Source: Lancefieldella rimae ATCC 49626
Lineage (GTDB): Bacteria; Actinomycetota; Coriobacteriia; Coriobacteriales; Atopobiaceae
Direction: 5' to 3'
DNA: 64,000 bases
NCBI RefSeq assembly: GCF_000174015.1
Contig: NZ_ACFE01000001.1
Location: forward strand, 62,001-126,000
In this document: positions 47,803 through 61,653 of the stretch, in pieces
How the letters are laid out: the number at the start of each line of letters is the position of its first letter
Numbering within the stretch: position 1 is the stretch's first letter
Notes under the pieces: model-generated
The model's database searches: none
What the model was told of the DNA's origin: nothing
What the model saw: only the letters and a program-made list of their open reading frames with translations
Program-made: the position numbers and the translations under genes

Positions 47803-48624
47803 CTACAAACCTAGTCGTTTGCGTTCAAGAGCGCGGGCGATGAGAATCTGTTTGCGGATCTCGGGAATACGCTTAGGATCCATGGCAGGTACGCCGGAGA
47901 GACGGTAGGGTATGCCAAGTTCTTCGTATTTCTTGGTGCCCATGGTGTGATAGGGGAGCACGTCAAGGCCAATGACGTTGTTCCAGTGGGCTATAATGCG
48001 GCCCACGCCGGCAAGCTCTGCGGGAGAGTCAGTATATCCCGGTACGACAACATGGCGAATGAGTACGGGAATCTTACGCCGGGACAACTCGTTGCCAAAG
48101 GTAAGCGGTCGTTCCGGTCCCACTTCACAGAGCGCGTGGTGCCCTTTGGGATCCGAGTGTTTGATGTCGAGAAGTACTAGGTCAGTATTGGCCAGCAGCC
48201 GTTCAAACAGTTCCGGATGGTGCGGGTCATACGTGATGCCGGAGGAATCCAGACAGGTGTGAATGTGTCCTTTAGGGTCGGTGTGAGCGGCTTCAAACAG
48301 CGCGCCGACAAACGCGGGTTGAGCCAGCGGCTCGCCGCCCGTTGCGGTAATGCCGCCTTTACGGTAAAAAGGTCGGTTGCGGTCGTAGAGCGCGAGCACG
48401 TCCGCCACGCTCTTCTCATGTCCAATGCCAAACTTCCACGTATCGGGGTTATGACAGTAGGCGCAGCGCATGGGGCAGCCCTGCATGAAGACCACCAAGC
48501 GCGTGCCGGGACCGTCAACCGTGCCGAACGTCTCAATGGAATGAACCCGCCCACGCACGGTGAGCGGGTTCTGATCTGCAGATCGTTCGCATGAATTGTC
48601 TGGGGTATGTTGCGATTCAGACAT
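47803..48624 (-). CDS. pflA: Pyruvate formate-lyase-activating enzyme
   Basis: Radical SAM enzyme of 273 residues that installs the glycyl radical on PFL. The cluster motif is GCPMRCAYCHNPDTW (CxxxCxxC), preceded by the GTVDGPGTRLVVFMQ segment shared by activases; TGGEPL is the SAM-binding motif. The start at 48624 has AAGGA upstream. It is the last gene of the pfl group, 32 bases behind the glycyl-radical gene. Confidence 0.95.
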   Translation of the reverse strand: MSESQHTPDNSCERSADQNPLTVRGRVHSIETFGTVDGPGTRLVVFMQGCPMRCAYCHNPDTWKFGIGHEKSVADVLALYDRNRPFYRKGGITATGGEPLAQPAFVGALFEAAHTDPKGHIHTCLDSSGITYDPHHPELFERLLANTDLVLLDIKHSDPKGHHALCEVGPERPLTFGNELSRRKIPVLIRHVVVPGYTDSPAELAGVGRIIAHWNNVIGLDVLPYHTMGTKKYEELGIPYRLSGVPAMDPKRIPEIRKQILIARALERKRLGL

Positions 48625-48656: not shown

Positions 48657-48908
48657 CTACAGTGCCTCGTGGAAGGTGCGGGAAATAACGTCGTCCTGCT
48701 GCTCTTTGGTAAGCGAGTTGAACTTGACGGCATATCCGGAAACACGAATGGTAAGCTGCGGATACTTCTCAGGATGTGCCTGGGCATCAAGCAGGGTATC
48801 TTTAGTGAATACGTTGACGTTGAGGTGGTGTCCGCCCTTCTCGGCATAGCCATCAATCATGCTGACAAGGTTATCTACCTGCTCGGGTGCTACTTCGTTT
48901 GCTTTCAT
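48657..48908 (-). CDS. Stand-alone glycyl-radical subunit of pyruvate formate-lyase
   Basis: Protein of 83 residues equal to the last part of a normal [41 protein letters not shown] ... SRTFHEAL. The radical glycine is Gly58 in RVSGYAV. AAAGGAG precedes its own ATG, and the 21 N-terminal residues before [11 protein letters not shown] look like a new gene start and not a frameshift scar. It resembles GrcA/YfiD, which repairs broken PFL, but here the large subunit has no radical domain at all, so this protein must supply it. Confidence 0.92.
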
Positions 48909-48930
48909 GGTTTCTCCTTTGAGTATATGT

Positions 48931-48955
48931 GGCGAGAAGCACGGCGCTTCTCGCC
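48931..48955 (-). terminator. Perfect GCGAGAAG-type hairpin between the two pfl genes
   Basis: GGCGAGAAGC and GCTTCTCGCC form a 10-bp stem with a 5-base loop in the 53-bp gap. No T-run follows, so it may stabilise or partly attenuate the transcript and set the ratio of the two subunits. Confidence 0.7.
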
Positions 48956-48961
48956 AAGTTG

Positions 48962-51142
48962 TTATGAACGGTCTTCGGCGCCTTCCGATGCGGACGGATC
49001 CGCCTCACAAGCGCAGTCAACGTGGTTTTCGATGCCGACATTGCTGAGGTCAAGATCGGAAAAATCAATGCCGTCGAGGTTGAGTTCATCTTCGTGGAAG
49101 AGGATGTCGTTGCCCTTACCAAGCGCATTGGGGATGATTGAGAACGTGTTGGAGATGCCGTCCTGAGCGTCTCCGAAGGGGAGCTTTGCCACGGAGGCCA
49201 AGGATGCTACGGCGCCGTGCGTATCGCGACGGTGCATAGGGTTGGCGCCCGGTGCAAAGGGAGCTCCGGCACGACGTCCGTCAGGAGTATTGCCGGTTGC
49301 TTTGCCGTAGACCACGTTTGAGGTGATGGTCAGAATGGAGGTGGTAGGTACGGAATCGCGGTAGGTGCCGGTCTCGCGGACAAACTTCATGAAGACCTCA
49401 ACGATATCGTGAGCGATGGTATCCACACGGTCGTCATCATTGCCGTACTTGGGGAAGTCTCCCTCAATCTCGTAGTCAACGACCAATCCGTCATCGTTTC
49501 TGATGGCTTTGACCTTGGCATACTTGATGGCGGAAAGCGAGTCTGCAACAACGGAAAGACCCGCAATGCCCGTAGCAAACCAGCGGTGTACGTGCTCGTC
49601 GTGGAGCGCCATCTGAATGCGCTCATAGCTGTACTTATCGTGCATATAGTGGATGGCGTTGAGGGTGTTGACATACACGCCTGCAAGCCAGTTCATCATG
49701 TCCAAGTACTTACTCATGACATCGTCGAAGTCAAGGTAGTCTCCTTCGACGGGCTGAAAACGAGGGCCAATCTGGTCGCCGGTTTTCTCGTCACGGCCGC
49801 CGTTGATGGCGTAGAGCAAACACTTTGCTAGGTTGGCGCGGGCGCCGAAGAACTGCATCTCTTTGCCGATGCGCATTGAGCTGACGCAGCAGGCAATGGC
49901 GTAGTCATCGCCGTGATAGACGCGCATGAGATCATCGTTTTCGTACTGGATGGAGCTGGTGGTGATGGAAATCTTGGCGCAGTAGCGCTTGAAGTTTTCC
50001 GGCAGGCGCACCGACCAAAGTACCGTAAGGTTTGGCTCGGGGCTGGTACCCATGTTCTCAAGCGTGTGAAGCCAACGGAAAGCCGACTTGGTAACCTGCG
50101 AGCGACCGTCAACACCCATACCGCCGATGGATTCGGTTACCCACTGAGGATCTCCCGAGAAGAGCTCGTTGTATTCAGGGGTACGTGCAAACTTCACCAT
50201 GCGGAGTTTCATAACCAAATGATCAACAAATTCCTGGATCTCGGACTCGGTGAAGGTACCTTCGGCAAGATCGCGCTCAGCATAAATGTCGAGGAAGGTG
50301 GTGTTGCGGCCGATGGACATGGCAGCGCCGTTTTGCTCTTTAACTGAGGCAAGGTAGCCCATGTAGAGCCACTGTACCGCCTCCTGGAAGTTGCGAGCAG
50401 GACGTCCAAGCTCCAAGCCGTAAATGTCACTGAGCTTTCGCAACTCACCGAGGGCGCGAATCTGCTCCGAGAGCTCTTCGCGGTGACGAATGGTCTTCTC
50501 GTCCATGGTTTTATGCGTACCGGCTTTTTCGGCCTTCTTTTCCTCGATAAGCGCATCGACACCGTAAAGGGCAACACGGCGATAATCGCCGATGATGCGG
50601 CCACGGCCGTATGCATCCGGAAGACCGGTGATGATGTGGGAATGACGGCAAGCACGCATCTCATCCGTGTAGACGTCAAAGACACCGGCGTTGTGGGTCT
50701 TGCGACGGTTGGTATAGAAGTCAACGATTTCGGGGTCAACTTCATAGCCGTAAGCTTTGCAGGCAGCCACGGCCATACGGATGCCGCCGTCAACCATAAG
50801 GGCACGCTTCAGCGGCTTGTCCGTCTGAAGACCGACGATCTTCTCGAGAGACTGATCGATATAGCCTGCCTTGTGCGAGGTGATGGTGGAGACCACCTTG
50901 GTGTCCATATCAATGACCCCGCCGTTTGTCGTCTCTTGCGCAAAGAGATTCATGACATCGGCCCAAAGCTTAGTGGTTGCTTCGGTGGGGCCGGCCAAAA
51001 ACGACTCGTCACCCTCATAGGGGGTATAGTTTTTCTGGATGAAATCGCGGACATCAATAGCGTGGTTCCAGTTACCGTGGGTAAAGTTACGCCATGCAAT
51101 TGATTGGTCTTCTGTGAGGACCACTTCTGCGCCTACTTGCAT
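48962..51142 (-). CDS. pflB: Pyruvate formate-lyase catalytic subunit lacking the glycyl-radical domain
   Basis: Cleaves pyruvate with CoA to acetyl-CoA and formate. The 726 residues follow E. coli PFL closely through the ten-stranded barrel: active-site Cys418-Cys419 in [14 protein letters not shown] (same numbering as E. coli), [16 protein letters not shown] and [26 protein letters not shown]. The protein then ends in an acidic tail ([12 protein letters not shown]) where the radical domain should begin. Start 51142 follows GAGGAG. The missing domain is encoded next, at 48657. Confidence 0.95.
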
Positions 51143-51352
51143 AACACACTCCTCTTTTGCAGCTCCGATGACGGGCGCTGCCTTGGGCCGGAAATTACGG
51201 TGGCAAAACTCCTCTTTTTGCCACTTCCAGCAATTACTACAACGTTCGTTTTCAGACCACTGGGTTTGTGTATAGCAAGTACCTGACACACACGATAAGC
51301 GCACAAAAGGCATTTCCTAAGACACTTGGTCAGTGATTAACTCTACTCTACA

Positions 51353-52196: not shown

Positions 52197-53081
52197 CTAC
52201 GCTTCTGTAAGGTATTTCGCGAGCAATGCAATACCTTCTCGATAGCTCTCGAATCCCTTACCACAACATACGCCTATGCAAGCATCTTTAAGGTAGGAAA
52301 CGCGGCGATACTCTTCGCGTTCATTGATGTCGGTCAGATGCACCTCAACCATTGGAATCTTTACGGATAGCGCGGCATCAAGCAGGGCTATTGAGGTATG
52401 CGTGTATGCTGCCGGGTTAATAAGGATGGCATCGTAGGTTCCAAGCGCATCTTGAATGGCACTTACCAGATCTCCTTCATAGTTGGACTGATAGCATACG
52501 CAATCAATAAATCCCTGTCTATCCGCTTCTTCTTTACATATTTTGATAAGCGTGCGGTAATCTTGTTTTCCGTAAAGCTTCGGCTCACGGATACCGAGCA
52601 TATTGATGTTGGGGCCGTTAATAATCAAAAGCCGCAATCCCTGCTCATCTTGAGTCAGTTCTTCAGGGGTCACAGATTCTTCTTTTGGGTCGGTGTCAAA
52701 CGTCCCGGTATGGGAGAGATTGTCAACCGAAAGATCAACGTCGCGCAAAAGAGATATCAGCTGTTCAACTTCCTTCTCGTCGGAGGTGGAACCATCTTCA
52801 GGTATAGGTATGACCTGAGATGCTTGCGTATGATTGCAACAAGCGGTGATTGCGGCATTTACCTGCTGTGCAATATTTGGCCCAAAGACAACTTCAATGC
52901 CGTTGATACCTCTGCCCACAATGCCAAGAACGCCTTGCAGGTTTCCAAGTTGTTCAGTATCGATACGGGTGGGGTCAGTAACGGTGAGACGCAACCGCGT
53001 CATACAGACTTCGTTACTTACAAGATTATCCGAACCTCCGATTGCCAAAAGAACGTTTTGTGCCGCTTGCTGCGAATCCAT
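52197..53081 (-). CDS. aroQ: PTS EIIB domain fused to type II 3-dehydroquinate dehydratase
   Basis: Residues about 5-85 form a glucose-family PTS EIIB domain with the phospho-acceptor Cys26 in EVCMTRLRLTV and the usual GVLGIVGRGINGIEVVFGPN. An acidic linker follows (90-148). Residues 149-294 are AroQ: INGPNINMLGIREPKLYG (catalytic Tyr170), SNYEGDL, INPAAYTHTSIALLDA and VEVHLTDINEREEYRR. AroQ makes 3-dehydroshikimate. All AroQ catalytic residues I know appear present; ALLDA replaces the usual ALRDA. Start 53081 fits AAAGGTG; ATG 53084 is possible. The fusion suggests sugar-transport control of aromatic synthesis, an inference. Confidence 0.88.
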   Translation of the reverse strand: MDSQQAAQNVLLAIGGSDNLVSNEVCMTRLRLTVTDPTRIDTEQLGNLQGVLGIVGRGINGIEVVFGPNIAQQVNAAITACCNHTQASQVIPIPEDGSTSDEKEVEQLISLLRDVDLSVDNLSHTGTFDTDPKEESVTPEELTQDEQGLRLLIINGPNINMLGIREPKLYGKQDYRTLIKICKEEADRQGFIDCVCYQSNYEGDLVSAIQDALGTYDAILINPAAYTHTSIALLDAALSVKIPMVEVHLTDINEREEYRRVSYLKDACIGVCCGKGFESYREGIALLAKYLTEA

Positions 53082-53108
53082 CATGCACCTTTCGTAGGTA
53101 TAGACGCG

Positions 53109-53316: not shown

Positions 53317-54681
53317 CTATAGCAAGAAGAGAGACTTGAGCGCGCGGGCATCCGTGAGAGGAGAACCCGTACAGGTAAAGTACGTATCTTTCCAAGCACG
53401 ATAGAGCGGCATACGTCTTTGTGCTATCTCTTTGAGATCATATAGGGCACTGAGTGGCCGATCTTTTATGGAGAGACCTTCAATGGGTCGATCAAGAAAG
53501 ACTAGGTGTCCATTTTGCTTCAGATAGTCATAGTTGACATCCCGTACAACCACACCTCCACCACACGCAATAATGGATCCTGTTTTTGAGCCCACATGCC
53601 GGGTAATTCTTGATTCAATGTCTCTAAAGTAAGTTTCGCCATAGGCGCGCAAGATTTCCGATGACGTTTTCCCTGTTTCATCGTGTATGGCAACGTCAAT
53701 ATCAACGCAAGGTCTTCCACAGAGTTTTGAAAGTTCAACTGCCGTACTTGTTTTGCCAACACCGGGCATACCGATAAGTACGATGTTTTGCATCTTTTGG
53801 GCAAGAGTACTCTCAATGGCTTCAATTTTTTTAGAGTCCATCTGTTGGAGCTCTATCGTGGGGCGCGTGGCACGTGCGGGCGCGTTTGGTGCCTGAAAGA
53901 GCGTATGCGCCGCGTATGCTTGGGCAACAAGCATACCGAGACCGTTTTCCGTGGCTACACCGCACCTTTGTGCTTCAAGAATAAGGCCGCTTCTTAGCGG
54001 ATTATAGATGAGATCAATAACACCGCTAAGTTTAGGAAACGCCGTAAGCATGCCATCAGGAAGTGGACTTTTTGGGCAGGCAGGATACATGCCGACGGGC
54101 GTACAGTTCACGATGAGAAATACACGGCGGCTACAATCGGGCACGTGGTTCTCGGTAAGGTCTTGATAGGTAATCCAGTCATTGCAGAGAGTATGTCGAG
54201 AAAAGAGAGAAGTACTTCTCGACACGCCAACGACATACGCGCCAAGTTTTGTACAGAGATAGCTCACGGCGCGACCGGCGCCACCGGTGGCGCCCAGCAC
54301 CAAAACGGTCTTTTTGTTTAAGAAGTCGTGAACAGAAAGGCCTGCTGTGAAACGGGCAAACCGCTCTAAAAGCCAGTGAAATCCCATTGCGTCAGTGTTT
54401 TCGGCAAAGACGGTATTGCCGTATCGCACAAGCGTGTTGGCTGCTCCTATGGTACGTGCCGCTTCACTTGCAACATTGGCGCTAAGAAGTGCTTTTTGCT
54501 TGTATGGAATTGTAACGTTAAGCCCTTTCCAATTCTGACTTGTGAATACGGCATCGACCTCGTCAAAGGCAGCCTCGATAAGAGCATAGGAGTCGGTCCC
54601 TAACAGCGCATGAATCTCCGGCGACCAACTGTGCGCAAGATGTTCTCCTAAAAGGCCGTATGATGCGGGGATTTCTTTCAT
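53317..54681 (-). CDS. aroE-aroK: Shikimate dehydrogenase-shikimate kinase fusion
   Basis: Two consecutive steps of the shikimate pathway in one 454-residue protein. Residues 1-270 are AroE: LLGEHLAHSWSPEIH, LNVTIPYKQ (catalytic Lys), GAANTLV, NTDAMGF, NADP loop VLGATGGAGRA. Residues from about 297 are AroK with P-loop GMPGVGKTS (304-312), VDIDVAIHDETG, FRDIESR and ACGGGVV. The linker is short. The ATG overlaps the chorismate mutase stop as ATGA. Confidence 0.93.
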   Translation of the reverse strand: MKEIPASYGLLGEHLAHSWSPEIHALLGTDSYALIEAAFDEVDAVFTSQNWKGLNVTIPYKQKALLSANVASEAARTIGAANTLVRYGNTVFAENTDAMGFHWLLERFARFTAGLSVHDFLNKKTVLVLGATGGAGRAVSYLCTKLGAYVVGVSRSTSLFSRHTLCNDWITYQDLTENHVPDCSRRVFLIVNCTPVGMYPACPKSPLPDGMLTAFPKLSGVIDLIYNPLRSGLILEAQRCGVATENGLGMLVAQAYAAHTLFQAPNAPARATRPTIELQQMDSKKIEAIESTLAQKMQNIVLIGMPGVGKTSTAVELSKLCGRPCVDIDVAIHDETGKTSSEILRAYGETYFRDIESRITRHVGSKTGSIIACGGGVVVRDVNYDYLKQNGHLVFLDRPIEGLSIKDRPLSALYDLKEIAQRRMPLYRAWKDTYFTCTGSPLTDARALKSLFLL

Positions 54682-54947
54682 GAGAGGTGGCTCTGCCGTG
54701 ATTTGGCCGCATCCATTAAAACGTGCATAAGCGAGACCGTAGACGGTTTGAGATACTCAGGGACGGATGCCTCTGCCATCTCAATCTTTTGCCGCTCACG
54801 GCTTGGATCCGGTATTGAAAGGTTGTGCTCGCGTTTATATACGCCAATTTGTGCTGCCAGACTTGTACGTTTGGCAAAGAGATCAAGAATCTGTGCATCG
54901 ATCGCATCGATTTGCACGCGCAGTTCCTCAAGCGTGTCTGTACTCAT
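54678..54947 (-). CDS. Chorismate mutase, AroQ-class helical domain
   Basis: Protein of 89 residues that rearranges chorismate to prephenate. It begins LEELRVQIDAIDAQILDLFAKRTSLAAQIGVYKRE, the first helix of the all-helical mutase, with the active-site Arg, Lys and later Arg (SRERQKIEM) in place. GAGGTGG precedes the ATG. Both ends overlap neighbours by ATGA, so it is embedded in the aro operon. Confidence 0.9.
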   Translation of the reverse strand: MSTDTLEELRVQIDAIDAQILDLFAKRTSLAAQIGVYKREHNLSIPDPSRERQKIEMAEASVPEYLKPSTVSLMHVLMDAAKSRQSHLS

Positions 54948-56089
54948 AGTCCCACCTCGTATGGATTGCGTTTTGATTCTTGCGGCCAGGAAAGCTCTGC
55001 ATCGAGAAGAGCGAGGGCGCATACGGCTTCCACCACAGGAACGGCTCTGAGAGCCGCACAGGTATCATGACGTCCGTGGACCTCAAGAGTTGTCTGGGTA
55101 TTTGAAGACAGGTCAACTGAGCGCTGGGGAAGTGAGATACTTGAGATGGGTTTGAATGCGCATGTAAAGAAAAGAGGCGCTCCGGTTGAAATACCCCCAA
55201 GAATGCCGCCCGCGTTGTTCGTTGCGGGTTGTACTTCACCGTCTTGTACAACGTACGGATCATTATTTTTACTACCACGGGTACGCGCGGCTTCAAAACC
55301 AAGGCCAAATTCAATGCCTTTAACCGCAGGGATACTAAAAATGGCATGTGCTATGGTGCTTTCGAGTCCTTCAAAGAGCGGAGAGCCCATGCCGGCGGGA
55401 ATACCCGTTGCTACACACTCAACAAGACCTCCGACACTGTCACCCGCATCGCGAGCCTCCCGTATGGCCGAGAGGATCTTCTCGCCCGCCAAATCATTGA
55501 GAACGGGCAACCCTTGTTTGGCATGGAGATGGGAAATTTGCTTGGATAAGAGCAGCCGTGAAGCAGGGGAGGCATCAAAAACCGCGAGCGTGTCGTCTTT
55601 TATTCCGGCAACTTCTTTAAGATGTGCGGCAATATGAATTTCTTGCGTGGAAAGTGCCTGGATGGCAATGCCTCCGGCAAGGCAAAGCGCCGCCGTAAGG
55701 CGTCCGGAAAACTGTCCGCCGCCTGAAGCGTCCTGGCGTCCGTGCCATTTGTACCAGGCGGCAAAATCGGCATGTCCCGGCCGAGGAACGGTACTGAGGT
55801 AGTCGTAATCGCCTGTGCGTACGTCGGTATTTTCAATGATGGCCGCAAGGGGAGCTCCACACGTTGTTCCCTTGGAAGTAAGTCCTGAGAGAATACGGAA
55901 TGAATCTCTTTCATGGCGCGGAGTATCTCCGGAAAACGAGCCGGGTGTACGTCTGGCAATAAAGTGTGTAAGCGCATCCATGTTAAGGTGCAAACCCGAC
56001 GGTAAACCATCAAGAACGCAACCAATCGCTTTGGAATGAGACTGTCCGAAAACGGTAACGCGCAATGTTGTTCCAAATGTTGAAGGCAT
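54944..56089 (-). CDS. aroC: Chorismate synthase
   Basis: FMN-dependent enzyme converting EPSP to chorismate, 381 residues. Signature blocks are FGTTLRVTVFGQSHSKAIG, RRTPG, RPGHADFAAWYKWHGRQDASGGGQFSGRLTA and NNAGGILGGISTGAP. AGGTACGT precedes the ATG. It follows aroA by 9 bases and overlaps the mutase gene by ATGA. Confidence 0.96.
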   Translation of the reverse strand: MPSTFGTTLRVTVFGQSHSKAIGCVLDGLPSGLHLNMDALTHFIARRTPGSFSGDTPRHERDSFRILSGLTSKGTTCGAPLAAIIENTDVRTGDYDYLSTVPRPGHADFAAWYKWHGRQDASGGGQFSGRLTAALCLAGGIAIQALSTQEIHIAAHLKEVAGIKDDTLAVFDASPASRLLLSKQISHLHAKQGLPVLNDLAGEKILSAIREARDAGDSVGGLVECVATGIPAGMGSPLFEGLESTIAHAIFSIPAVKGIEFGLGFEAARTRGSKNNDPYVVQDGEVQPATNNAGGILGGISTGAPLFFTCAFKPISSISLPQRSVDLSSNTQTTLEVHGRHDTCAALRAVPVVEAVCALALLDAELSWPQESKRNPYEVGL

Positions 56090-56098
56090 ACGTACCTG

Positions 56099-57415
56099 CT
56101 ATTCCGTTGTGTCCGTAAGTTCCACATTGCCACCGAGAGCACGGAAATCCTCGAAGAAGGCGGGGTAGGATTTGGCGATCGCTTCCGCATGTGTGACGGT
56201 GGTTGGATTGTTCGCAAAGGAGGCGGCAACCGCGGCCATCATAACAATGCGATGATCGCTCTCGCCATCGACGCTTCCTCCGTCAAGAGAGCCGTGACCT
56301 TCAATAACGAGAGTGTCATCGCCCTCAATATATGCCCGGCCCCCAAGAGCGCTTATGGCAGCGGTAATGCTCTGCAAACGATCGGACTCTTTTAAGCGCA
56401 GCCTTTGAACGCCACTGAATTTCGATGTACCTTCCGCAAACGCCGCAACAATGGCAAGCGGCGGCACCAGATCGGGCGTGTCGGCAACGTTAAGTTGAAT
56501 GGCTCGGAGATGATCGTACATGGCCGCGGCAGTACTTCCGTGGCGAGAAACACGTGCGCCTACGAGTGAAAGCGCAGCCAATATGGTGCGATCACCCTGT
56601 TTGCTTTGCATGTTGAGGTCCGTAACTTCCACACCCGAGCCAAGGGCCCCTGCAGTAAGCCAAAAGGCTGCATTTGACCAGTCACCTTCGACTTCGAGAA
56701 GGCCGGGGGTTTGATAGCGGACATTGTCGGAAACATAGAATCTGAGGTATTCGGTATCGTTTTCTGTTACGTGGGTCTTCTCGACACCCACGCCGAACTT
56801 TGCAAGGACCGAGCAGGTAAGATCTATATACGGTGCAGACTCAACCGGCTCAGTTACCAGTACCTCAAGATCTTGCTCCATAAGCGGAGCTGCCATAAGA
56901 AGTCCGCTTACAAACTGTGAGGAAATATTGCCCGGCAATACAAAGTAGCCGCCTTTAATCTGCCCAGAAACCGAAAGAGGATAGGAGTCTTCCGGAGACA
57001 AGCGTGCCCCGTGGGACACAAGTTCCTCGTAGAAAGGTGTAAGAGGCCGATGGGCGAGCGTACCTTCAACATGAAGTTCAACCTTACGTCCAAGGGCACA
57101 GACTAAGGGAAGGAGAAAGCGCAGGGTTGAGGCAGACTCACCACAGTTGAGATCAAATCGGCGCAGGTTAAAGAGGACGCGTTTGGGTTGCTTGATGGGT
57201 GAAACGCGATAGCCTTTTGATGTTTTGGCAAAGTGAGCGCCAAGTGTCTCCAAACACGCAATGGTAGCGTCAATGTCTTTTGATGCGGTATGGCAGGTAA
57301 TGTCTGTAATACCGTCGGCAAAAGCCGCACAGATGAAACTTCGGTGAGCCTCGGATTTTGAGGCGACACTGCGAATACTTCCTGAAAGCTCATGTGGAAT
57401 AATAGTTGCTAACAC
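56099..57415 (-). CDS. aroA: 3-phosphoshikimate 1-carboxyvinyltransferase (EPSP synthase)
   Basis: Protein of 438 residues. Conserved parts include SKSEAHRSFICAAFADG, LNCGESASTLRFLLPL, the substrate-binding GNISSQFVSGLLMAAPL, KESDRLQSI and the C-terminal DHRIVMMAA. The start is a GTG; its ribosome site TAGGAG includes the stop codon of the upstream repressor gene, so aroA is translationally linked to that regulator. Confidence 0.95.
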   Translation of the reverse strand: MLATIIPHELSGSIRSVASKSEAHRSFICAAFADGITDITCHTASKDIDATIACLETLGAHFAKTSKGYRVSPIKQPKRVLFNLRRFDLNCGESASTLRFLLPLVCALGRKVELHVEGTLAHRPLTPFYEELVSHGARLSPEDSYPLSVSGQIKGGYFVLPGNISSQFVSGLLMAAPLMEQDLEVLVTEPVESAPYIDLTCSVLAKFGVGVEKTHVTENDTEYLRFYVSDNVRYQTPGLLEVEGDWSNAAFWLTAGALGSGVEVTDLNMQSKQGDRTILAALSLVGARVSRHGSTAAAMYDHLRAIQLNVADTPDLVPPLAIVAAFAEGTSKFSGVQRLRLKESDRLQSITAAISALGGRAYIEGDDTLVIEGHGSLDGGSVDGESDHRIVMMAAVAASFANNPTTVTHAEAIAKSYPAFFEDFRALGGNVELTDTTE

Positions 57416-57424
57416 GGTGTACTC

Positions 57425-58099
57425 CTAAAGAGTCTTGAGCGGCTGGAACCAAATAATGGTTCCAAGTACTTCAATGGTGCTATCTATATCAGAGATGCCG
57501 ATGATGATATCGTCCAAATTTTTATTATGACTGTAGGGAGAGAGCATAAGGTGCTTGGCACCCTCGTTCCAAGTACGCAATATTACATATGATTTTTGAT
57601 TCCACAATGTACTAAGCTCCTGATAATTAAGTACCTCTACAGCAACGATTGATCCATTTTTTGGTTGCTTTTCATTGGGATCTACAACAACAGCAACACC
57701 TTGAGGAATCTTGAGATTGTATCCGTCATCTTCAACAATGAAAGCAAATAGATTTTTTCTGTTTTGAGCAATATATGCAGGAATGGAAATCAATATGCAT
57801 GAATCTTCTTTGACATTTCCATGAGTATCAAACAATACCTTTATGAGGGGAATTTTGATCTGTTCATCAGAACTGAGGGTGGATTTGTATTTTTGAGCTA
57901 GACCATAAGTATCAGATATAAGATCGTCTTCTGAAATCCCGAATGCATTACACAGTTTCTTTAAAGATTCTTTTCTAGGGAGTGATCCTTTTCTCCAACC
58001 GGTAACTGCACCAGCAGTAACACCGCTTAGGCGGGCGATTTCATCTTGTGTCACATTTTTTAATACGAGAAGAGCCTCTAAATTTTCAGAAAATCCCAT
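57425..58099 (-). CDS. XRE-type repressor with degenerate S24 (LexA/CI-like) domain
   Basis: Protein of 224 residues. The helix-turn-helix is in KNVTQDEIARLSGVTAGAVTGWRKG (about 14-40). The C-terminal half has the S24 fold (FAFIVEDDGYNLKIPQGVAVVVDPNEKQPKNGSIVAV), but the usual catalytic Ser of GDSM is replaced by DGYN, so self-cleavage is unlikely. Start 58099 follows GAGGTTTC. It is divergent from the KDPG aldolase/PTS operon and stops inside the aroA ribosome site; it probably controls the PTS and is read with aroA. Confidence 0.8.
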   Translation of the reverse strand: MGFSENLEALLVLKNVTQDEIARLSGVTAGAVTGWRKGSLPRKESLKKLCNAFGISEDDLISDTYGLAQKYKSTLSSDEQIKIPLIKVLFDTHGNVKEDSCILISIPAYIAQNRKNLFAFIVEDDGYNLKIPQGVAVVVDPNEKQPKNGSIVAVEVLNYQELSTLWNQKSYVILRTWNEGAKHLMLSPYSHNKNLDDIIIGISDIDSTIEVLGTIIWFQPLKTL

Positions 58100-58153
58100 A
58101 GAAACCTCATTTATATCGCTGGCGGCTGAGAAACAACCGCTCACCGCAAATAA

Positions 58154-58280: not shown

Positions 58281-58895
58281 ATGGACGCAAGCTTTGGTTC
58301 GGTTACTCAAATATTACGCGGATATACCTATGAGCAGGTACGATTGGTTGTCTCCTTACTTGTAGGAAGTAAGGTACATAATGTTGAAATAACTTTAAAC
58401 TCTGATGATCCATACACAATCATAAGGAAAATTTCAGCCGAATTTTCTGATCATTTGCATATTGGAGCTGGAACTGTACTTACGTTAAATGAACTTAGAA
58501 ATGCAGTGAACGCAGGAGCTACATTTGTTCTTTCTCCAACCATGATGTCTCAAGAAATGTTTGATTTTTGTAAGGAAAAAGGCATACGAAGTGTTCCAGG
58601 GGCATTTACACCTTCTGAAATTCGACAGTGTTTTTTAGATGGTGCCGATATTGTTAAGGTTTTCCCCGCGAACGAAGTTTCACATACCTATGCATCTAAA
58701 GTTTTGGAACCACTAGGGTCTTATCCTTTGATGGCTGTTGGTGGTGTAACAGCAGCTAATGTAAAAGAAGTTTTTTCCGGTGGTTACTCATATGTTGGAA
58801 CAGCAGGTGGAATTTTCAAAAAGAAAGACATTATAGAGATGAATGTTAAAGCTCTTAAAGAAGAGCTGCAGTTTTTTGAAGAGAACCTTGTGTAG
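58281..58895 (+). CDS. eda: KHG/KDPG aldolase
   Basis: Aldolase of 204 residues cleaving 2-keto-3-deoxy-6-phosphogluconate-type sugar acids to pyruvate and a triose phosphate. The Schiff-base lysine is in DIVKVFPANEV; VEITLNS holds the catalytic Glu, and GAGTVLT and SPTMMSQEM are typical. AAGGGG precedes the ATG. It heads an operon with fructose-type PTS genes, so the PTS sugar may enter by a 2-keto-3-deoxy route. Codons are AT-rich compared with the aro genes. Confidence 0.9.
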   Translation: MDASFGSVTQILRGYTYEQVRLVVSLLVGSKVHNVEITLNSDDPYTIIRKISAEFSDHLHIGAGTVLTLNELRNAVNAGATFVLSPTMMSQEMFDFCKEKGIRSVPGAFTPSEIRQCFLDGADIVKVFPANEVSHTYASKVLEPLGSYPLMAVGGVTAANVKEVFSGGYSYVGTAGGIFKKKDIIEMNVKALKEELQFFEENLV

Positions 58896-58918
58896 CTTAA
58901 TTTAAGAAAGGGATATCT

Positions 58919-59236
58919 ATGAAGATTGTTGGAGTAACTGCGTGTCCTACTGGTATTGCACATACGTATATGGCAGCTGAGGGACTTGAAAGGGAATGTC
59001 GTAAACGTAACTTCGCGGTAAAGATTGAAACCCAGGGGAGTATAGGGCCGGAGAATGAACTTTCACAGGAAGATGTTGATTCAGCTGATGTTGTGATACT
59101 TGCAGTAGGAATTGTTATTGAAGGGGAGGAACGCTTTGAGAATGCTCTCGTTTTGCATGCGGATGTGAATAAGGCTATTTCTCATCCAGAAGTAATTGTT
59201 GATGCAGCGGTAAAGCTGTTTTGTGAATCGCAATAG
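58919..59236 (+). CDS. Fructose-family PTS EIIB component
   Basis: Protein of 105 residues. The phospho-acceptor is Cys9 in VTACPTGIAHTYMAAEGLE, the diagnostic fructose-EIIB motif; VKIETQGSIGPENEL follows. GAAAGGG precedes the ATG. It pairs with the following EIIC; no EIIA is present in the window. Confidence 0.93.
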   Translation: MKIVGVTACPTGIAHTYMAAEGLERECRKRNFAVKIETQGSIGPENELSQEDVDSADVVILAVGIVIEGEERFENALVLHADVNKAISHPEVIVDAAVKLFCESQ

Positions 59237-59254
59237 ACAGGAAGGTGGCAATGT

Positions 59255-60346
59255 ATGGAAGACAAGAAACTTAAAGCTTTTGGAAAAGACATCCAAAAAC
59301 ACTTGCTCAGTGGCGTCTCCTTTATGATTCCGTTAGTAGTTGCAGGTGGTGTTATCTATGCAATTTCGATTTTGGGGGCCGTGTCTACTGCTAAAGGACT
59401 TATTCCAAACGGTCCGATAATGACGTATTTAAGTGTACTTGGTAAAGCTGGTCTATCTCTAATGATTCCTGTATTTGCAGGATATATTGCATATTCAGTT
59501 GCCGGACGTCCTGGTCTTGCACCTGGTTTTATTATGGGATTCATTGCAAATAATACTGTTCAAGTAAATGGAATTGACGTAAAGTCCGGATTTTTAGGCG
59601 CCTTACTTCTAGGACTTATTGTTGGATACATCGCTAAATGGATGAAATCATGGAAAGTCAGTAAAACAGTAAAAACTATTATGCCTATACTCATTATTCC
59701 AACGTTGACAACATTAATTGCAGGAGCACTTTATTACTGTGTTATTGCAATTCCATGCTCATGGATTATGAATGCTCTTACTGAAACAATGAACAACCTT
59801 GAAGGTGCGAGCAAATATGCTCTTGCTGCTGGTATTGGAATCTTTGGTGAACTTGATTATGGCGGACCGGTAACTAAAGCTGTTTCGATGTTTACTCTTT
59901 CTTTAATTAATGAAGGAAACTACTTCCCGAATGGACTTTTCCGAATAATAGTTGCAGTACCACCTATTGGTATTTTCTTCTCTACACTTATTGCGAGAAA
60001 CAAGTGGAGTATTGAAGATAGGGATCTAGCGAAATCAATTGCAATTATTGGCTGTCTTGGTATTACGGAGGGTGCTATACCTTTTGCAGTAAAAGATTTA
60101 AAGAGGGTAGTTCCAAGCTCAATTTTTGGTTGCGTTGTTGGAGCAGCTATCGGTGCATTTGGGGGAGTTTCATGTCCTGTACCTCATGGTGGTTTTATTG
60201 TATTGCCCGTTGTTGGAGAACCTCTTTGGTTTTGTGCAGGTATAATTGGTGGAGCACTTGCAACAGGAATCTTACTTTCTATTTTGAAAAAACCGCTTGA
60301 ATCTCAGGAAACTAACAAGACTGATGCGTCCTTTGCCATTGTTTAG
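59255..60346 (+). CDS. Fructose-family PTS EIIC permease
   Basis: Membrane protein of 363 residues with about nine or ten helices. Fructose-EIIC blocks are present: HLLSGVSFMIPLVVAGGVIYA, AGYIAYSVAGRPGLAPGFIMGF, FGELDYGGPVTKAV, and GITEGAIPFA with the conserved Glu. AGGAAGG precedes the ATG. The substrate is unknown; the gene neighbour suggests a sugar whose phosphate is cleaved by the aldolase. Confidence 0.93.
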   Translation: MEDKKLKAFGKDIQKHLLSGVSFMIPLVVAGGVIYAISILGAVSTAKGLIPNGPIMTYLSVLGKAGLSLMIPVFAGYIAYSVAGRPGLAPGFIMGFIANNTVQVNGIDVKSGFLGALLLGLIVGYIAKWMKSWKVSKTVKTIMPILIIPTLTTLIAGALYYCVIAIPCSWIMNALTETMNNLEGASKYALAAGIGIFGELDYGGPVTKAVSMFTLSLINEGNYFPNGLFRIIVAVPPIGIFFSTLIARNKWSIEDRDLAKSIAIIGCLGITEGAIPFAVKDLKRVVPSSIFGCVVGAAIGAFGGVSCPVPHGGFIVLPVVGEPLWFCAGIIGGALATGILLSILKKPLESQETNKTDASFAIV

Positions 60347-60424: not shown

Positions 60425-61534
60425 CTAGGCAAGCTTTATCAGATCCGAAAGCGTCTCAAAAGAAACGGGCATCACTGACGACGTGCCGATGGATTTTGGA
60501 ACGATGATGTTTAGGACATGATCGGTTCGTTTTTTGTCTCGTTTAATGTACGCGAGAAGCTCTTCGGATTGATAGGGAGACTCCGTAGGCAGGTTATATG
60601 CCCTCACGCAGTTCTCTATGGCATCGGCGGTTTCTTTGCTGCACCAGCCTTTCTTCTGACTTATACGCCCCATCATACAAAGACCGGCTGCCACGCTGTG
60701 CCCATGGGGAAGCGTGTAGCTACTTGCGGCCTCGATTGCATGTCCGAATGTATGTCCCAAGTTCAGCCGAATACGAACTCCATGCATATCAAAAGGATCT
60801 TGCTCAACAAGGGTCTTTTTGATGTTGACGCAAGTTATAACGATATTGGTCAGCCAGTCTAAGTTCTTCTCGTGTATTGCAAGGTTACTTCCCAAAGGAG
60901 CGTGGTCCAGTAATTGAGAGAACAAGGTTTTATCGGCCATAACGGCGCACTTTATTACCTCCGCAAATCCTTCTTCTATATCTTGTGCCGAGAGGGTTTG
61001 CAAAAGAGATGTGTCGGCTATAACGAAACTTGGCTGCCAGAAAGTCCCCGCCTGGTTTTTACCGGATGCCAGGTTAATCGCTGTTTTTCCTCCCACGGAA
61101 GCGTCAACCATGGAGAGAAGAGTCGTTGGCATGGTGACGTAGCGTATACCGCGAAGATAGGTGGAAGCGGCAAATCCTGCAGTGTCACTGACCACGCCTC
61201 CGCCAAATGCAATGACGCAGGAGTTTCTCGTAAGCTCGTTTTGTGCAAAGTCAGACCAAAGCATCTGTAAAGTTTCAGGTGATTTTGTGTGCTCACCGCA
61301 GGGAAGGATGGTCTGGGAGATATTTGAGAAATTCCGGTAAAGTACCGCTTTCAGCCGATTCAGGTAGAGCTTTGATACGGTTGTGTCAGAAACAATATGC
61401 AGATGTGTATCAGAGTCTATCCAAGTGGCCAATATGTTGGCGCTTTCGGCAAGCACATCTTTGCCAATAATGATTTCAGAAGAATTTTCAAGTTGATATT
61501 TTGAGAGGTCAAGGCTTAGTTTTGAATACGTCAT
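60425..61534 (-). CDS. aroB: 3-dehydroquinate synthase
   Basis: Second step of the shikimate pathway (DAHP to 3-dehydroquinate), 369 residues. Key blocks are VIAFGGGVVSDTAGFAAS, YVTMPTTLLSMVDASVGGKTAIN, EGFAEVIKC and RIRLNLGHTFGHAIEAAS with zinc-binding His residues. Start 61534 follows GAGGAC. It is separated from the other aro genes by the PTS/repressor block. Confidence 0.95.
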   Translation of the reverse strand: MTYSKLSLDLSKYQLENSSEIIIGKDVLAESANILATWIDSDTHLHIVSDTTVSKLYLNRLKAVLYRNFSNISQTILPCGEHTKSPETLQMLWSDFAQNELTRNSCVIAFGGGVVSDTAGFAASTYLRGIRYVTMPTTLLSMVDASVGGKTAINLASGKNQAGTFWQPSFVIADTSLLQTLSAQDIEEGFAEVIKCAVMADKTLFSQLLDHAPLGSNLAIHEKNLDWLTNIVITCVNIKKTLVEQDPFDMHGVRIRLNLGHTFGHAIEAASSYTLPHGHSVAAGLCMMGRISQKKGWCSKETADAIENCVRAYNLPTESPYQSEELLAYIKRDKKRTDHVLNIIVPKSIGTSSVMPVSFETLSDLIKLA

Positions 61535-61653
61535 ATATGTCCTCATCTTGTGCTTTGGCGTGTGTTGTAGTGAGTCTAACATGGTGGGTATCTTGTGCAC
61601 ATAAATTTTCAACTTGAATTAGGGTAGGGGTGCTCGCTATACTTACCAACCAT

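Follow-up and report, generated by a model that had tools for sequence, protein, structure and literature searches.

Conservation of a PTS EIIB domain and its linker in the aro operon of Atopobiaceae with intact, decayed or deleted AroQ

We report that a PTS EIIB domain and an acidic linker, fused to the dehydroquinase AroQ in the aro operon of the Atopobiaceae, a family of anaerobic bacteria, are kept in that operon even where AroQ has decayed or been deleted, and we consider it probable that EIIB and linker together form a PTS-phosphorylation sensor module of the operon for which AroQ catalysis is not needed. The fusion gene lies in the window (the whole stretch of DNA that was analysed, 64,000 nucleotides from the 1.63-Mb genome of Lancefieldella rimae ATCC 49626, an Atopobiaceae) as a single open frame of 294 aa at 52197..53081 on the minus strand. 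It starts with the ATG at 53081, with an alternative in-frame ATG at 53084, and on the plus strand over 52197..53081 stops interrupt that frame. Pfam and NCBIfam matches reveal a glucose-family PTS EIIB that is followed by an acidic linker and then by a complete type II dehydroquinase, AroQ, and the protein is 74–75% identical over its full length to its sister-species counterparts. The architecture read in the earlier note is thereby borne out: a complete EIIB with its phospho-cysteine (PF00367, Cys26) precedes a full AroQ (PF01220 and the AroQ residues), and the stretch that joins them, about residues 85–148, is acidic. In an AlphaFold2 model of the fusion, AroQ is confident, EIIB is moderately confident and the linker is disordered with one helix.

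The EIIB domain (residues 1–90; 52812..53081, minus strand) is assigned to the glucose family by its match to PTS_EIIB PF00367 (residues 9–41, E 8.1e-11, 41.6 bits against a gathering score of 27), by phmmer against the solved structures of E. coli IIB-Glc, the IIB domain of the glucose transporter (9e-7), and by invariant site residues. Its predicted phospho-acceptor, Cys26, is encoded by a TGT codon at 53004..53006 (minus strand) and stands in the context CMTRLR. Conservation was counted on an alignment of 125 fusions, 124 of which cover the site: G15, G16, N19, C26, T28, R29, L30 and R31 are identical in 124/124, and EIIB identity across the aligned fusions averages 51% with a minimum of 26%. 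The Cys26 codon is TGC in 116 relatives and TGT in 8, and all six arginine codons are used at R29 and R31 across the family; since synonymous codons vary at these invariant sites, a lack of time for change does not explain the invariance. The domain, the CxTRLR phospho-site and the overall fold are common to the transporter EIIBs of EIIBC and EIICB proteins (sucrose, N-acetylmuramate, trehalose, glucose), of which the nearest are same-genus EIIBC proteins (L065–L067, 517–538 aa, 39–43% identity) that also carry LEVVLGP. Unlike these, the fused EIIB is soluble, lacks an EIIC and is fused to or co-transcribed with shikimate enzymes; no EIIC was found fused to it or beside it in the aro operon, as would be the case in a PTS EII complex. 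The fused EIIBs bear the signature VLG...RGxNG(I/L)EVVFGP with Glu63. Position 63 is Glu in 124 of the 125 fusions, whereas most transporter EIIBs have Gln there; we rejected Glu63 as a unique mark of the fused domain, because transporter EIIBs of two types (L065–L067 and L248) also have Glu. A glucose/sucrose-type EIIB is likewise attached to a soluble metabolic enzyme in the TIM-EIIB fusion (NCBIfam PRK14905/NF011497), but there the enzyme is triosephosphate isomerase and the EIIB is C-terminal, and the window protein matches the EIIB part only (model positions 279–350 of 357; it scores 16 bits where the cut-off is 485).

The AroQ domain (residues 149–294; 52200..52637, minus strand) matches DHquinase_II PF01220 over residues 151–287 (E 1e-48), and Foldseek with the model returned solved AroQ structures. 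The residues invariant in stand-alone AroQs (R165, Y170, N222, D235, E246, H248 and R255) are all present, so that the window protein has the fold and catalytic residues of an ordinary type II dehydroquinase, to which an N-terminal EIIB and a linker have been added. The linker (residues 91–148 or, more loosely, 85–148; 52638..52811, minus strand) is mostly disordered, with a pLDDT below 50 over most of residues 85–145, and it is acidic in most relatives. It evolves faster than the rest of the fusion, yet keeps two motifs which, degenerate as they are, occur far above shuffled expectation. Motif 1 is a short V-H-I-like strand (75% of linkers versus 4% of shuffled ones), often followed by (S/T)P(G/A)RRxS(Y/F). 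Motif 2 is an amphipathic, acidic LxxLL-like helix (94% versus 28%), which in the window protein corresponds to the helix of the AlphaFold2 model at residues 102–113, the EQLISLLRDVD region (52743..52778, minus strand). In the window's own genus only motif 2 is evident and motif 1 is missing.

The fusion gene is the last of an operon that runs, all on the minus strand, from aroA (EPSP synthase, 56099..57415; PF00275, 3e-76) through aroC (chorismate synthase, 54944..56089; PF01264, 9e-117), a chorismate mutase gene (54678..55022; CM_2, 1e-19) and an aroE-aroK fusion (53317..54681; Shikimate_dh_N and SKI), the order being the same across genera. The fusion was found in all five genomes of the window's genus, and L004, recovered in a scan for close relatives, is another full-length one. 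In a survey of 140 Atopobiaceae genomes, many of them MAGs, the DNA of 127 AroQ loci was inspected and EIIB is in frame with AroQ in 125, the other two being cut at a contig start and broken by ambiguous sequence. Recurring at this frequency, the fusion is not explained by chance or by a local artefact, and the possibility raised in the earlier note that it might be unique to one isolate fell away once the search of relatives recovered the same domain pair as a family trait. The 13 genomes without an AroQ match are not simply cases of gene loss, for five of them (G122, G131, G135, G137, G139) keep an EIIB-only gene in the slot. In two the contig breaks off ahead of the slot (G015, G052), one (G081) is a 68% complete MAG, and five (G012, G013, G014, G029, G138) also lack chorismate synthase; these last five have no module either, their EIIBs lying in transporter-size frames of 485–683 aa. 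Counted by slot, EIIB occupies its place in the aro operon in 130/130 Atopobiaceae genomes where the slot is assembled. In the rest of the order Coriobacteriales, AroQ matches begin after the EIIB part, mostly in frames of 150–220 aa. Nine sister-family operons have the same aroB-aroA-aroC-CM-aroEK-aroQ order with a stand-alone AroQ, and no EIIB was found within ~14 kb of these nine. The same operon without EIIB in sister families places the gain of EIIB at the base of the Atopobiaceae.

AroQ itself was not kept everywhere. PF01220 and the catalytic Arg, Tyr, Asn, His, Glu, His and Arg are found together in the window protein and in 105 of the 125 aligned relatives; in the other 20, namely all 16 members of genus g30 and four of g35, the active site appears from the residues to be lost, making these AroQs predicted pseudoenzymes. 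R165, Y170, H228, E246, H248, R255 and R259 are variously replaced or deleted in the 20 (in some decayed g35 members only part of the set is changed) and identical in 105/105 others. Many of the genomes with a decayed AroQ are MAGs. The decayed domains retain fold residues such as N155, N160, S199, N200, E202, N222, S230, G276 and Y280. In five more g35 genomes the AroQ domain is absent and an EIIB-linker gene of ~150 codons sits in its slot, between aroE-aroK and a convergent 5-FTHF cyclo-ligase gene; these genes stop after the linker helix of motif 2, retained at their C-terminus, and no AroQ remnant was found downstream of them. The Cys26 site is unchanged in all 25 genomes with a decayed or deleted AroQ. 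A type I dehydroquinase, AroD, which is non-homologous to AroQ, is encoded in 24/140 genomes: in 23 of these 25, as against 1 of 107 with an intact AroQ (G126), and the two AroD-less exceptions are 77% (G070) and 73% (G139) complete. The three AroDs checked score above the curated TIGR01093 cut-off and are located away from the aro operon. Chorismate synthase is present in every genome with a decayed or deleted AroQ, and the pathway has thus been retained there. Mapped on an AroE-AroK tree, the AroQ losses require a minimum of three events, placed on supported branches; with too few independent pairs for significance, the association of AroD with AroQ decay is drawn from the overall table and from these few events. 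As an observation from the AroD neighbourhoods, which were read by NCBIfam, AroD is fused to a second AroE outside the aro operon in g35 genomes (L292:2675-4405, L293, L294; including G131). Candida albicans Aro1 (PMC9074039) is a multidomain protein that likewise retains an inactive dehydroquinase, the activity being supplied by a non-homologous enzyme. There, however, a type I domain has decayed, the type II Dqd1 compensates and no PTS domain is involved; in the Atopobiaceae it is the type II enzyme that has decayed and the type I AroD that is present.

The EIIB is under strong purifying selection in all genomes with a decayed or deleted AroQ: pN/pS is 0.04–0.08 for the EIIB-only genes of close relatives and 0.06–0.07 for EIIB in decayed fusions. 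For decayed AroQ it is still 0.10–0.19, compared with about 0.04–0.2 for intact AroQ, which suggests that the pseudo-AroQ is kept as a folded body. Since EIIB and linker outlast AroQ in at least three lineages, their conserved output must reach beyond their own AroQ; the conserved unit is most likely EIIB plus linker, with an output that is not just the catalysis of the attached enzyme. As the two persist where AroQ is predicted to be inactive or is gone, and vanish without the aro pathway, the module most likely reports the state of the PTS to that pathway or to its control.

A supply of phosphate for such a module is encoded in these genomes. Encoded in the window's genome are a single HPr and a single EI, together with two free EIIAs and one EIIBCA, and within the Atopobiaceae a glucose-type EIIA is found in 134/140 genomes and EI in 126/140, covering all 35 genera. 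Seven genomes (two of them closed) out of the 22 examined contain no PF00367 domain other than the module, although all seven encode EIIA. Glucose-family EIIAs of B. subtilis phosphorylate non-cognate EIIBs of the same family (PMC6148471), which by analogy makes phosphorylation of Cys26 in the fused EIIB by a glucose-type EIIA plausible. One candidate donor recurs across genera (L272, L280–L285, L287, L291): a free EIIA that resembles E. coli Crr and carries an MGLFDxFKK-like segment at its N-terminus. No EIIA was found near EI in the EI regions of G058, G059, G086, G103, G037 and the window's genome.

We propose that a glucose-family EIIB, related to those of sucrose- and MurNAc-type transporters, was fused onto AroQ at the base of the family. 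A free glucose-type EIIA, fed from PEP through EI and HPr, would phosphorylate Cys26, and the module would thereby report PEP supply and PTS sugar flux. By way of the EIIB surface and the short motifs of the linker, its phospho or dephospho form may then act on a partner that belongs to the aro pathway or controls it. AroQ would be an enzyme and probably an oligomeric carrier, in most genera both at once. The earlier note had taken the EIIB for a PTS sensor that adjusts the shikimate pathway. This holds up insofar as a complete, conserved EIIB is tied to the aro operon family-wide, alongside EI, HPr and a free EIIA, and is the sole glucose-type EIIB in seven relatives; it does not for AroQ catalysis as the target, given the lineages in which AroD is found and EIIB and linker are kept after the site, or AroQ altogether, has gone.

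Other explanations have to be weighed against this one. The covalent fusion in nearly all AroQ loci and the intact catalytic residues of most members are what would be expected if phosphorylation of EIIB served only in cis, switching the activity or assembly of its own AroQ; yet the EIIB site is unchanged after loss of the AroQ site (20 genomes) or deletion of AroQ (5) in at least three lineages, and we regard regulation confined to the fused enzyme as unlikely. The EIIB could serve some PTS function without effect on the aro pathway, for instance as a soluble EIIB acting in trans in sugar transport or as a general phosphate sink, its place in the aro operon being a historical accident. Free-standing EIIB domains are possible, and the arginines of the EIIB motif are conserved too. 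Against this, the operon position is fixed across genera, no module exists where the aro pathway is absent, and every glucose-type EIIC of the window's genome has its own EIIB, so that we rate it a shade lower, as improbable. The earlier note was right that no glucose-family EIIC adjoins the fusion: the two in this genome lie elsewhere. Service to an orphan glucose-type EIIC is unsupported there, because the two EIICs without an EIIB are both of the lactose/cellobiose family.

Cys26 is itself invariant, as it would be in redox sensing, metal binding or a structural role; a role of this kind is very unlikely, since the whole phospho-site (GG, N and C-x-T-R-L-R) and not just the cysteine is invariant, and EIIA and EI are encoded in nearly all these genomes. 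That EIIB is a neutral relic of a gene fusion is scarcely credible, being contradicted by the pN/pS of the EIIB-only genes and by invariance across the family.

A sensor module acting beyond AroQ would follow a known logic, in which the phosphorylation state of an EIIB controls a partner protein. In E. coli, dephospho EIICB-Glc sequesters the repressor Mlc (PMC3901232), and SacX controls SacY in B. subtilis (PMC6148471). The EIIBs of EIICB-Glc and SacX, however, belong to membrane transporters and regulate sugar genes, whereas the Atopobiaceae EIIB is soluble and encoded in an aromatic biosynthesis operon. We found no description of an EIIB-AroQ fusion among open-licence papers; the part families are known, and those papers do not describe their combination, its fixation across the family or the persistence of the sensor once the enzyme is lost. 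PEP is used twice by the shikimate pathway, and by the PTS for every imported sugar. To our knowledge no direct protein link between the two is known; a phospho-sensor built into the aro operon throughout a family would, if true, provide one, and our data point to such an undescribed link from sugar uptake to aromatic amino acid synthesis. Whether this amounts to a new class of PTS-controlled regulator seems to us evenly balanced: it would be a soluble EIIB sensor, encoded in an operon and devoted to a biosynthetic pathway, that was at first attached to AroQ and later emancipated from it, with a pseudoenzyme and finally a free EIIB-linker protein linking aromatic amino acid synthesis to PEP and sugar status. 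The natural series from intact enzyme through pseudoenzyme to enzyme loss makes it testable which part carries the function, and offers a bacterial case of an enzyme domain outliving its catalysis, apparently due to a regulatory passenger.

Several observations concern the surroundings of the operon. The chorismate mutase of the window stands alone; in other genera, frames of ~390 aa at that place probably also contain a prephenate dehydratase. An XRE/S24-type regulator (57425-58144, minus strand) is encoded on the strand of aroA and ends 10 bases ahead of it; as no counterpart turned up in the other genera whose aro regions were examined, it may be a local regulator of the operon. In most of the sister-family operons that were examined, aroB directly precedes aroA. 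In the window (60425-61612, minus strand, and 58281-60346, plus strand), by contrast, an aldolase-like gene and an apparent fructose-type PTS EIIC gene lie between the two. On the other side of the fusion gene, pyruvate formate-lyase is apparently split (48657-51313, minus strand): a 783-aa frame (48962-51313) lacks the glycyl-radical end, which is apparently encoded in a separate small frame (48657-48908, with RVSGYAV) before the activase (47803-48624).
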